The notes under the pieces were generated by a model. That model worked only from the letters and a program-made list of their open reading frames with translations, had not been told where the DNA came from and ran no database searches. A stretch of 39,981 nt of DNA, from contig VXRN01000073.1 of assembly GCA_009838465.1 (NCBI GenBank), forward strand, positions 1-39,981. The letters are read 5' to 3'. Position numbers and translations under genes: made by a program. The stretch's first letter is position 1. Each line of letters opens with the position of its first letter. This DNA is from Dehalococcoidia bacterium. Lineage in GTDB: Bacteria > Chloroflexota > Dehalococcoidia > Lucifugimonadales > UBA1123. Shown here in pieces: positions 18,781-30,211 of the stretch.

Positions 18781-18838
18781 CACTCCCGCGAAGGCGGGAA
18801 CCCCGAAGGGCTCGCCGCTCGGCAATCCGGGGGAGGGG
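18781..18838 (+). repeat. GNRA-hairpin dispersed repeat, copy 1
   Basis: CACTCCCGC-GAAG-GCGGGA forms a 6-bp hairpin with a GAAG loop. It is followed by CCCCGAAGGGCTCGCCGCTC and GGCAATCC, which recur at 19385 and 30153. Confidence 0.85.
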
Positions 18839-19384: not shown

Positions 19385-19444
19385 CACTCCCGCGAAAGCG
19401 GGAACCCCGAAGGGCTCGCCGCTCGGCAATCCAGGGGGTGGGGC
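19385..19444 (+). repeat. GNRA-hairpin dispersed repeat, copy 2
   Basis: This is a near-identical copy of 18781-18838 with CCCGC-GAAA-GCGGG as the hairpin, ending GGCAATCCAGGGGGTG. It lies just after the stop of the dppC-like gene and could end its transcript. Confidence 0.85.
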
Positions 19445-26457: not shown

Positions 26458-26482
26458 CATTCCCGCGAAAGCGGCAATCCAT
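26458..26482 (+). repeat. GNRA-hairpin dispersed repeat, truncated copy
   Basis: CATTCCCGCGAAAGCGG then CAATCCA matches the first hairpin of the longer copies and joins directly to the CAATCC end, lacking the middle part. Confidence 0.7.
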
Positions 26483-27070: not shown

Positions 27071-27182
27071 ACTGGTAAATTCCCGCCTCTTATGTTATGA
27101 CAGTTTACGCATCGCATGATAGCTCATGTGAGATGAGAATCGCGCGATGCTTCGACACACCCCCAGACTACCGGAGAACGAT

Positions 27183-28238
27183 ATGGAACGCCCGATTATG
27201 AAGCCGATAGGCACGCCCGCGGAGGAACTGGACACTCCGTCCCTGGTCGTGGAACTGTCCGCGCTCGAGTCCAACATCAATCACTTCCACAGCCGCTTTT
27301 TGGATTCTCAAGGCCCAAAACTACGGCCTCACCTCCAGTCCCACCTGTCGCCCGCCATAGCACATATGCAGCTCCGCGCCCCCGGAACCGTCGGCGGAGC
27401 CGCCGTCTCGACGCTCGGCCAGGCGGAGATATTCGCCCAGCACGGCATTGACGACATTCTCATCACCAATCTAGCCGTTACCGCTTCCAAGGTTTCCAGG
27501 GCTGCCGCTCTCGCAAAGCGAATTGGCCTCACCATCGGAGCCGACAGCCGCCGCAACATCTCTGATTTGGGTACGGCGGCAACCTCAGCCGGCTCCGAAA
27601 TAGCCGTCCTGATCGTCGTCCGAGGCGAGTCCGACTTCCTCGGTGTATCTCCAGGAGACGCGCCTGCCCTGGCCGGGATCGTATCCGACACGCCAGGACT
27701 CAGTTTCGCTGGACTGATGTCCTCGAATTCCGGTTCGCTGCTGGACGCGCTCTCAAACTGCGCGGATGAAGGCATTGAATCCCCATCCGCAGCATTGACC
27801 TTGGACGAGATAACTAGCGCTCCGGCGTCCCTGGCAGGAATTACCGAGATGATAGCTGGCTCATACGCCCTCATGGACGCCGCGAACTTGGGCCTCATGT
27901 CCGAACTCCGCCCCGCCGCCAGGATCCTCACCACCGTAATGACCCACCAGGACGAGGGCCTGGTCTGGCTCGACGCCGGACAAAAGGCCACCAGCATAGA
28001 CACGGGACTGCCGTTGGTAGATGGGATTTCCGGCGCGACCGTCAGCCGCATGAGCGCCGAGCACGGCGGCATGGTTCTCGAAGCAGGCGCAAGCTGGGAC
28101 ATTGACCTCGGCAGCAAGGTCTGGCTCATCCCCCACAGCATAGCCAACACCGTCAACGTTTACGACTTCATCCACGCCACACGAGACGGCAAACTCGAAG
28201 CCGTCTGGGAAGTATCCGCCCGCGGCCGCTACGACTAG
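27183..28238 (+). CDS. D-threonine aldolase / alanine racemase-fold protein lacking the PLP lysine
   Basis: This 351-residue protein has the fold-type III PLP barrel and the C-terminal beta domain of the D-threonine aldolase family. It opens with ELDTPSLVVELSALESNI. Members normally read RPHxKTHK at the cofactor lysine, but here the sequence is LRPHLQSHLSPAIA, with glutamine at residue 52 in place of the lysine. The metal motif near the end, usually PNHVCPTVN, reads IPHSIANTVN, so His and Cys are displaced or lost. EHG is kept. It may be a pseudoenzyme or have another chemistry. GGAG lies 6 bp before the ATG. A better-conserved paralogue follows 144 bp downstream. Confidence 0.8.
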   Translation: MERPIMKPIGTPAEELDTPSLVVELSALESNINHFHSRFLDSQGPKLRPHLQSHLSPAIAHMQLRAPGTVGGAAVSTLGQAEIFAQHGIDDILITNLAVTASKVSRAAALAKRIGLTIGADSRRNISDLGTAATSAGSEIAVLIVVRGESDFLGVSPGDAPALAGIVSDTPGLSFAGLMSSNSGSLLDALSNCADEGIESPSAALTLDEITSAPASLAGITEMIAGSYALMDAANLGLMSELRPAARILTTVMTHQDEGLVWLDAGQKATSIDTGLPLVDGISGATVSRMSAEHGGMVLEAGASWDIDLGSKVWLIPHSIANTVNVYDFIHATRDGKLEAVWEVSARGRYD

Positions 28239-28382: not shown

Positions 28383-29483
28383 ATGACCACGCAACCTCCC
28401 GCCATCGGAACACCCCTATCCGAACTCGACACACCCGCCCTACTCGTTGACCTCGACGCGCTCGAGCACAACTTCGCGCATATCTCCGAACTGTACGCCG
28501 ACTCCGTGTGCAAGATGCGCGAGCACGCCAAGAACATAAAGACGCCCGCGATCCTGCACAAGCAGATTGAGGCAGGCGGCACCGTCGGCGGCGTATGCGC
28601 TGCCAAGGTCGCCGAGGCTGAGGTCATGGTCGAGGGAGGCATCAAGGACATCCTCATCACTAGTCAGGTCGTCACCCCCGACAAGATAGCCCGCGTCTGC
28701 TCCCTCTCCCGCGAAGCCGACACCAAGGTCGCCATAGACGACGAGCGCAACCTCAGGCTCATATCCTCCATATCCGACCGCGCGGACACAGACGTGGGCG
28801 TCCTCATAGAGGTCAACACATCCATGGACCGTGCCGGAATACGCCGGACCGAACAGGGCATCAACCTCGCCCGTCTCGCCACAGACCTCCCCGGAGTCAC
28901 CTTCAGGGGCGTAATGAGTCACCAGTCCATAAGCGGAGACCCGGACACAGAGACCCGCTTCAGCGAGGGCCGACGCTGGATGCAGATGTGCGTTGACGTT
29001 GGGAACGCCATCGAGGACGCCGGAATCCCCGTCGAGATAGTCTCCACTGGCGAGACCTTCACCATAGACGTCGCCCCCGGAATGTCCGAAGTCACCGAAG
29101 TGCAGGGCGGCACCTACGCCCTGATGAACACCACAAGCGCCTACATGGAAGACTTCCAGTTCGCGGCGAAGATTCTGACCACCGTCATCAGCCGCCCCTC
29201 AGACCACATCGCCATAGGCGACGTAGGTTACCGCGCCCTCGCCGCTCCCAACGGCGTCCTCCCCTCCGTCGAGGGTCACGACGATATTGAAGTTGACTCC
29301 CTCGCCCCCGACCACATCATCCTCAAATCCCAGGACGCCATGCCCCTCAGAGTAGGCGACCAGTTCCTCCTCCTCAGCGCCCAGCAGGACATCCTCGTCA
29401 ACCGCTGGGACCGCTTCATAGGAGTCCGCAACGGCCTAGTCGAATCCGTCTGGCCCATCCTTGCCCGCGGATGCCACCACTAA
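28383..29483 (+). CDS. D-threonine aldolase-like PLP enzyme (alanine racemase N-terminal domain)
   Basis: This 366-residue paralogue of the preceding gene has the start ELDTPALLVDLDALEHNF. The expected PLP lysine is kept as K50 in REHAKNIKTPAI. Further blocks are GGTVGGVCAAKVAEAEVM and GGIKDILITSQVV, then IDVAPGMSEVTEVQGGTYAL. The C-terminal metal motif is changed: the HxC positions read SAQQDILVNRWD, that is Gln and Asp by gap-free alignment. The substrate is probably a beta-hydroxy amino acid or related D-amino acid, but metal use is uncertain. AGAGG lies 8 bp before the ATG. It overlaps or abuts the methyltransferase gene downstream. Confidence 0.85.
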   Translation: MTTQPPAIGTPLSELDTPALLVDLDALEHNFAHISELYADSVCKMREHAKNIKTPAILHKQIEAGGTVGGVCAAKVAEAEVMVEGGIKDILITSQVVTPDKIARVCSLSREADTKVAIDDERNLRLISSISDRADTDVGVLIEVNTSMDRAGIRRTEQGINLARLATDLPGVTFRGVMSHQSISGDPDTETRFSEGRRWMQMCVDVGNAIEDAGIPVEIVSTGETFTIDVAPGMSEVTEVQGGTYALMNTTSAYMEDFQFAAKILTTVISRPSDHIAIGDVGYRALAAPNGVLPSVEGHDDIEVDSLAPDHIILKSQDAMPLRVGDQFLLLSAQQDILVNRWDRFIGVRNGLVESVWPILARGCHH

Positions 29484-29485
29484 AG

Positions 29486-30109
29486 ATGGAATACGACAAA
29501 CTCAGCAAGCGCCTCTTCGCCGCCTGGTACGACCTTCTCAACTCCGGCGTCGAATCCCGCGTCATCCCATACCGCAGACTCACCGCCGGCCTCAGCCTCG
29601 GAAGGACCCTCGAAATCGGCGGCGGAACCGGTGCCAACATCCCATTCTATCCCCCTGGAGTACGGCTAATTACCGTCGAACCCAACCCCCACATGACCTG
29701 CCGCTTCATCAGAACATCCCAGGAAAGCCACGCCGACGCCACCGTCGTATCCGCCATAGGCGAGAACCTGCCCTTTGCAGACGACACATTCGACAGCGTA
29801 GTCACCACCCTCACCCTCTGAATGGTGAAAGACCTTGATCTCGTCGTGAGCGAGATACGCCGCACGCTACGGCCCGGAGGCCAGTTCCTCTTCTACGAAC
29901 ACGTCATATCCCAGGACAAGAGGGTAGGGCGGCTTCAGACCCTCGCCAACCCCATCTGGAAATTTGCCACCACCGGCTGCAACCTCGACAGGGACATAGT
30001 GAGCGCGATCAGGGACGCCGGCTTCCAGCGCATAGAACTTCGCCGTTTCTCCCTCTCCGTCGGCCTTCCCATCACCATTCCCAATATCGTCGGCACAGCC
30101 CACGCCTAG
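29486..30109 (+). CDS. SAM-dependent methyltransferase with one in-frame TGA (Sec candidate or nonsense mutation)
   Basis: The two halves form one class I methyltransferase when the TGA at 29819-29821 is read through. The first half has EYDKLSKRLFAAWYDLL, motif I TLEIGGGTGANIPFYP (41-56), LITVEPNPHM and IGENLPFADDTFDSVVTTLT. The second half has EIRRTLRPGGQFLFYEHVIS and ends at 30109. Relatives, as I recall, have cysteine in the segment TLVLCSV exactly where codon 112 is TGA. A perfect 6-bp hairpin, ATCTCG/CGAGAT at 29838-29856, follows about 16 nt later. No other frame damage is visible. It is either a selenoprotein or a recently broken gene. The ATG at 29486 lies just past the stop of the D-TA-like gene; an ATG at 29471 would overlap that gene. 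Confidence 0.7.
29838..29856 (+). promoter_or_regulatory. SECIS-like hairpin after the in-frame TGA
   Basis: ATCTCG (29838-29843) pairs with CGAGAT (29851-29856). A further U-G pair would leave a 5-nt loop CGTGA with G in second position. The loop begins about 23 nt after the TGA, inside the range recalled for bacterial SECIS elements. This is a by-eye match only. Confidence 0.4.
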
Positions 30110-30152: not shown

Positions 30153-30211
30153 CATTCCCGCGAAAGCGGGAACCCCGAAGGGCTCGCCGCTCGGCAATCC
30201 AGGGGTTGGGG
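30153..30211 (+). repeat. GNRA-hairpin dispersed repeat, copy 3
   Basis: CATTCCCGC-GAAA-GCGGGAA is followed by CCCCGAAGGGCTCGCCGCTC and GGCAATCCAGGGG. It lies between the convergent methyltransferase and glutamine-synthetase-like genes. Confidence 0.88.

Follow-up and report, generated by a model that had tools for sequence, protein, structure and literature searches.

The locus considered here raises the question of whether a TGA in the middle of an otherwise intact methyltransferase gene is a stop or a selenocysteine (Sec) codon. It lies on contig VXRN01000073.1 of assembly GCA_009838465.1, a Dehalococcoidia bacterium of the order Lucifugimonadales, within a stretch of 39,981 nucleotides (nt) that was analysed as a whole (the window). 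In the forward frame 29486-30109, the TGA at 29819-29821, codon 112, is the sole in-frame stop before the terminal TAG. The initial annotation, made from the letters alone, had proposed that two methyltransferase halves share this frame and are parted only by the TGA, and domain searches agree: the read-through product of 207 residues matches PF08241 (Methyltransf_11) over the whole profile (1-95 of 95; 58.4 bits), the N-terminal half alone reaches 28.2 bits over profile positions 1-70, and the C-terminal half alone has no match to this profile. The whole-length domain and the predicted fold place the product among the class I S-adenosylmethionine (SAM)-dependent methyltransferases. Across 42 aligned rows, the invariant columns of the N-terminal half are E43, G45, G47, T48, G49, A50, N51, P66, and H69. 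The genome holds no second close copy, the next match being partial and 34% identical. As set out below, the gene very probably encodes one 207-residue selenoprotein, a class I SAM methyltransferase with Sec as the predicted reading of UGA 112. The annotation's suggestion of a new selenoprotein methyltransferase is supported by the Sec genes, a second species with the same TGA, and a group of stop-split protein clusters.

Homologues indicate which residue the TGA replaces. A search found 384, and of the best 120 of these, mostly 204-218 residues long, 119 have Cys and one has Arg in column 112; all 120 have Cys in column 165. The context of Cys112 is TLTLCMV in the closest relative and TLVLCSV, TLVLCMV, or LVFCSV in seven class-level relatives (37-48% identical), all of which keep both Cys112 and Cys165. 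The Cys that the initial annotation gave for relatives at this position, including the motif TLVLCSV, is thus seen in actual relatives. In a survey of 250 genomes of the order, the gene occurs in 38 (39 matches at 1e-40), and 30 loci were fetched for codon reading. Codon 112 is TGC in 16 of them, TGT in 12, and TGA in two, the window and a sister species (G007); the 37 other matches have no stop inside. Among species-representative contigs, 18 loci were found, with codon 112 readable in 17 and TGA in one, again G007. Wider sampling yielded a stop in the own genome only, both in the class (393 genomes drawn, eight matched at 1e-40) and in the phylum (400 drawn, 66 matched at 1e-25), and the 26 stretches of IMG/VR that fit a search pattern include no relative.

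The sister species bears directly on a plain nonsense mutation from TGC or TGT, which would make the gene a pseudogene in one strain. Cys orthologues with TGC or TGT in Dehalococcoidia/SAR202 genomes reach 89-90% identity to the window protein, and in the close sister G006, 89% identical overall, codon 112 is TGC and such a hairpin as follows the TGA in the window is missing; one substitution would suffice. (The 75% obtained for the C-terminal half of G006 in an ungapped comparison is too low, as G006 has one extra residue near the end.) However, the protein of G007, encoded on a single contig of 3,184,931 bases (about 3.2 Mb; OY282441.1, gene loci L028/L079), is 72% identical and carries TGA at the same codon, and this second species already contradicts a mutation in one strain. 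Nor has the downstream half decayed: between the window and G007 the upstream halves are 73% and the downstream halves 74% identical, with third codon positions least conserved in both. Sense codons in sister genomes, together with downstream decay and an unconserved hairpin, had been named as grounds for giving up the proposal; G006 does have TGC and lacks the hairpin, but G007 shares both TGA and hairpin, and decay is not seen. Since the stop also hits a nearly invariant Cys in a genome with the full Sec machinery, and 19 further protein clusters begin behind codon 112 (see below), a nonsense mutation is very improbable.

Gene callers cut such genes in two, and the pieces can be recognised in protein databases. 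A search with the C-terminal half gave 31 matches, 21 of which begin exactly at the Met after codon 112; these clusters comprise 95-98 residues and are 68-98% identical to the window. The N-terminal half gave 34 matches; with the Cys form P0008 set aside, 20 of the other 33 stop precisely at the TLTL before codon 112. Among the 21 C-half clusters, P0134 is G007 and P0121, for which no source is listed, appears to hold the window's own half, so that 19 are additional. P0134 and P0164 are the two halves of the G007 gene, and P0125 and P0159, each on a contig of 127,245 bases, are taken as two halves of another. About 40 half-gene clusters would then be pieces of one kind of protein. Exactly two such pieces are also what a split enzyme would leave in the databases, in which the TGA is a true stop, the adjoining ATG restarts translation by coupling, and the two chains assemble into one methyltransferase. 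The ATG directly behind the TGA suits this arrangement, but the Met is there for other reasons, being present in 86 of the 89 Cys forms whose C-half identity is 60% or more. Moreover, the cut would pass through the motif behind strand beta-4, and the stop at a conserved Cys and the kept Leu119 described below would be left unexplained. A split enzyme thus appears highly unlikely.

A selenoprotein presupposes the machinery for Sec insertion, and selA, selB, selC, and selD had been named as the first check. All four are found in the own genome, each above its cut-off: tRNA-Sec (66.2 bits), SelB (334.7), SelA (536.6), and SelD (384), the last with an in-frame TGA of its own in the context CAG-TGA-ASK. 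In a control of 14 well-known genomes, five passed the cut-off for tRNA-Sec (three at a stricter E-value), two for SelB, one for SelA, and two for SelD. As the own assembly consists of 75 contigs with 6.4% contamination, its machinery might be that of another organism. This doubt, which attaches to binned genomes, is removed by G007, whose single contig carries SelA, SelB, a TGA-bearing SelD, and tRNA-Sec together with the TGA-bearing methyltransferase. Within the family, represented by eight genomes, SelD occurs in all eight, with TGA in every locus that covers the N-terminal part; SelA and SelB occur in seven (not in G002) and tRNA-Sec in seven (not in G005 at E 1e-9). G006 has all four genes, so its Cys enzyme is not due to a loss of the machinery. 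In the SelD loci of the family genomes (L021, L096-L101, and L103), the TGA context is CAG-TGA-A[SA]K, and their eight stem-loops, compared by eye, have no motif in common with the methyltransferase hairpin. G003 has two tRNA-Sec matches above the cut-off (G003:C124 and G003:C64; 67.6 and 61.6 bits), which reflect either contamination or a real second copy. The machinery also bears on a reading of UGA as some other residue, by near-cognate readthrough or a suppressor tRNA and without selenium. Such readthrough would keep both halves under selection, but TGA is an ordinary stop elsewhere in the window, where it ends 11 of 21 genes, the genome has the sel genes with a TGA in its SelD, and Cys positions are what Sec replaces; readthrough of this kind is extremely unlikely.

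Bacterial Sec codons are decoded with the help of a selenocysteine insertion sequence (SECIS), and a hairpin with a small G-containing loop had been pointed out at 29838-29856. It is present there, with a stem ATCTCGT/GCGAGAT of seven pairs (six Watson-Crick and one T-G wobble) and a loop CGTGA; the TGA is 16 nt from the stem and 23 nt from the loop. G007 has the identical 7-bp hairpin 16 nt behind its TGA. The bacterial SECIS (bSECIS) model, as outlined in PMC13188914, provides for a loop of 3-9 nt, a stem of 4-16 bp, a G in the first two loop positions, a distance of 16-37 nt from UGA to loop, and an energy of at most -7.5 kcal/mol. The geometry of the hairpin fits this model, and the energy fits only with neighbouring bases counted: the 26-nt stretch around the hairpin reaches -8.0 kcal/mol in the window and -8.9 kcal/mol in G007. 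A hairpin of bSECIS geometry is seen in 14 of the 28 Cys loci from the order, and the other 14 lack one. Codons 118-125 are identical between the window and G007 in eight of eight cases; elsewhere, 74 of the 133 codons that specify identical residues are themselves identical (0.009 at this rate, for a stretch picked post hoc). SelB and tRNA-Sec would decode UGA codon 112, steered by the predicted SECIS hairpin 16 nt downstream. We infer both that the hairpin is a SECIS element and that translation reads through.

A residue-level imprint is the stronger sign than the hairpin by itself. For this comparison, 22 stop-split C halves (the 21 clusters and the window) were set against the 89 Cys forms. 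Leu119 and Ile124 occur in 22 of 22 stop-split C halves and Ser122 in 20 of 22; the Cys forms most often have Ala at 119 (39), Ala at 124 (53), and Arg at 122 (43). The exact motif DLVVSEI (118-124) is found in 17 of 22 stop-split C halves versus two of 89 Cys forms. In the ten stop-split clusters below 80% identity, the match to the window is 96% over residues 118-124 and 69% over residues 125-192; the corresponding values for 82 Cys forms are 53% and 62%. Column 119, whose Leu is part of the hairpin, shows the greatest contrast of all 95 columns, and it keeps this rank when the comparison is with the 13 Cys rows from the same clade. These results divide the alternative raised at the outset, that the hairpin arose by chance from codons: a single hairpin of this kind is indeed not beyond chance, but its recurrence in a second species and the stop-split clusters with their residue constraint are.

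The two Cys rows that have Leu119 and the complete motif (LDLVVSEIRR), P0008 and P0009, may represent recent changes from Sec to Cys, with the element still legible as a possible fossil of the former Sec codon. A tree was built from 66 C halves (the 22 stop-split ones and 44 of the Cys forms; 95 columns, many forks open), and in it the stop-split rows fall within one clade of 35 rows (support 89/76), where they are intermixed with 13 Cys rows. Six changes between the stop-split and the Cys form are needed on this tree, at least three of which are forced by well-supported branches. Exchanges between Sec and Cys thus appear to have taken place repeatedly. Because they interchange within the clade, Sec would tune the reaction rather than create it.

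Several points weigh against the selenoprotein reading or against parts of its support. Its support is at the level of sequence, and the DNA that shows TGA comes from two loci only, the window and G007; in the other clusters the stop is visible only through the ends of the proteins, so that its being TGA is deduced. Close relatives use plain Cys, so the family can do without Sec. Taken without its neighbouring bases, the stem-loop has -6.9 kcal/mol, which is above the bSECIS limit, and one Cys locus (L056) has a hairpin as stable as that of the TGA loci (-7.1 kcal/mol). Shuffles of synonymous codons reach the hairpin energy in 1327 of 20000 cases for the window and 1336 of 20000 for G007, which makes the hairpin alone weak, and the probability that the stem survives synonymous drift between the two is 0.11. 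The identical run of 26 nt at the hairpin is rivalled by one of 27 nt at codon 160; given this run and the drift probability, the 26-nt run was dropped as strong evidence for the hairpin. Part of the residue imprint reflects descent, as columns 122 and 124 are outside the ten greatest contrasts against Cys rows of the same clade and Leu119 alone stands out there.

With respect to known systems, a 2026 inventory of 119 selenoprotein families lists as methyltransferases, in its Table 1, ArsM, two ArsM fusions, MduS, methyltransferase/UXPK-star, and methylated-DNA-protein-cysteine methyltransferase (PMC13188914, which takes MduS and UXPK-star from PMC12013261). ArsM, its fusions, UXPK-star, and MduS resemble the window protein in being methyltransferase selenoproteins and match it weakly, and as identities for it they were rejected on profile scores: 27.1 of the 263 bits needed for arsenite methyltransferase ArsM (NF008823), 36 of 575 and 36 of 510 for the ArsM fusions (NF041536 and NF041537), 37.4 of 460 for methyltransferase/UXPK-star (NF047649), and 29.4 of 380 for MduS (NF045649). 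They also differ in the Sec motif, which is UxxG or CxxU in the entries described and TLTLUMVK here. In ArsM, Sec is near the N terminus, and the cysteines bind the metalloid, as Cys112 and Cys165 might conceivably do here. ArsM is also missing from the VIA-align list, which is evidence in neither direction. No family in the inventory table matches the window protein, nor did literature searches, which mostly did not extend to subscription papers, bring up this family. The Cys orthologues of Dehalococcoidia/SAR202 belong to the same family and differ in TGC or TGT at codon 112. The protein is best regarded as a new subfamily of selenoproteins whose enzyme fold is known.

The function is less clear. 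Class I enzymes hold the methyl acceptor at the loop following strand beta-4, and residue 112 of the predicted fold is in the loop right behind this strand (strand 102-108, helix from 117). A selenolate at 112 would line the acceptor site, where it might bind, activate, or protect the acceptor. The human alkyl thiol methyltransferases METTL7A and METTL7B (TMT1A/TMT1B) have the motifs TLVLCSV and GCNLxR, and they are similar to the window protein in a PNPH motif after an acidic residue that was proposed as SAM anchor. Translated, the published primer for the D98A mutant of METTL7B reads TCLAPNPHFEKFL (PMC7921093), and the window protein has TVEPNPHMTCRF; PNPH is present in both, in a comparison that covers the motif only. 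According to the same source, arsenic trioxide is no substrate of METTL7B (PMC7921093). The window protein differs from METTL7 in being bacterial and in its predicted Sec where Cys stands. The most likely role, put forward tentatively, is that of an S-methyltransferase like METTL7/TMT1, acting on a small thiol, sulfide, or selenide. Against this role stands the nearest solved structure, both by sequence and by fold, a phosphatidylethanolamine N-methyltransferase of R. thermophilum (8ys9; 24% identity). The enzyme might accordingly methylate phospholipids or other N-acceptors, with residue 112 structural and Sec a near-neutral stand-in for Cys. However, the position aligned with residue 112 is Ser in 8ys9, the best 120 homologues keep Cys112 and Cys165 (almost) without exception, and Sec is costly; this function is somewhat less likely.

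The coordinates of the features are compiled in Table 1. The nearer upstream pyridoxal phosphate (PLP) enzyme shares 79.5% identity with the gene that immediately precedes the methyltransferase in G007; the farther one is 50.4% identical to its G007 counterpart and 32% to its paralogue in the window. This PLP tandem precedes the methyltransferase in the window and in G007 and is not found in G006. Downstream of the methyltransferase, G007 has three similar open reading frames in tandem (L079:3964-5781), and the one that was scanned is of the Uma2 type (PF05685). A short palindromic repeat, ATTCCCGCGAAAGCGGGAA (up to two mismatches), occurs at 18782-18800, 19386-19404, 26459-26477, and 30154-30172, and these four copies contrast with none in 100 shuffles. 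It looks like a dispersed element of the repetitive extragenic palindromic (REP) type.

Table 1. Features of the methyltransferase locus and its upstream neighbours (window coordinates)
Feature	Position	Strand	Basis or remark
Second upstream PLP enzyme, same type as and paralogue of the first	27147..28238	+	Domain match
PLP enzyme, alanine racemase N-domain and D-serine dehydratase-like domain	28383..29483	+	2 bases lie between its stop and the methyltransferase ATG
Methyltransferase, N-terminal half, 111 codons	29486..29818	+	PF08241; SAM-binding EIGGGTGAN motif and PNPH motif
In-frame TGA, codon 112, predicted selenocysteine	29819..29821	+	Cys in homologues; TGA again in G007
Methyltransferase, C-terminal half, 95 codons and TAG stop	29822..30109	+	Identity to G007 equal to that of the N half
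Predicted bacterial SECIS hairpin	stem 29838-29844 / 29850-29856, loop CGTGA 29845-29849	+	bSECIS geometry; same in G007
Cys165 codon (TTGCN motif), possible partner of residue 112	29978..29980	+	Cys in 120/120 listed homologues

Taken in its widest form, the proposal is that of a new selenoprotein family of METTL7-like thiol or sulfide/selenide S-methyltransferases in Dehalococcoidia-type bacteria, with Sec in the methyl-acceptor site, repeated flips between Sec and Cys, and a SECIS imprint that persists as a fossil in certain Cys forms (P0008 and P0009); in this full extent it is plausible, with a probability somewhat short of even. Most selenoproteins characterised so far combine a thioredoxin-like fold and a redox motif, as stated in the inventory (PMC13188914). 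If the proposal is true, selenium would here serve group-transfer chemistry and not redox chemistry. Sec at the acceptor site of a SAM methyltransferase would also hint at why Cys112 is nearly invariant in the family, and natural Sec/Cys pairs of 89-90% identity are open to direct comparison. If the kinship with METTL7/TMT1 holds, these bacterial enzymes would have a bearing on the little-understood human thiol-methylating enzymes.
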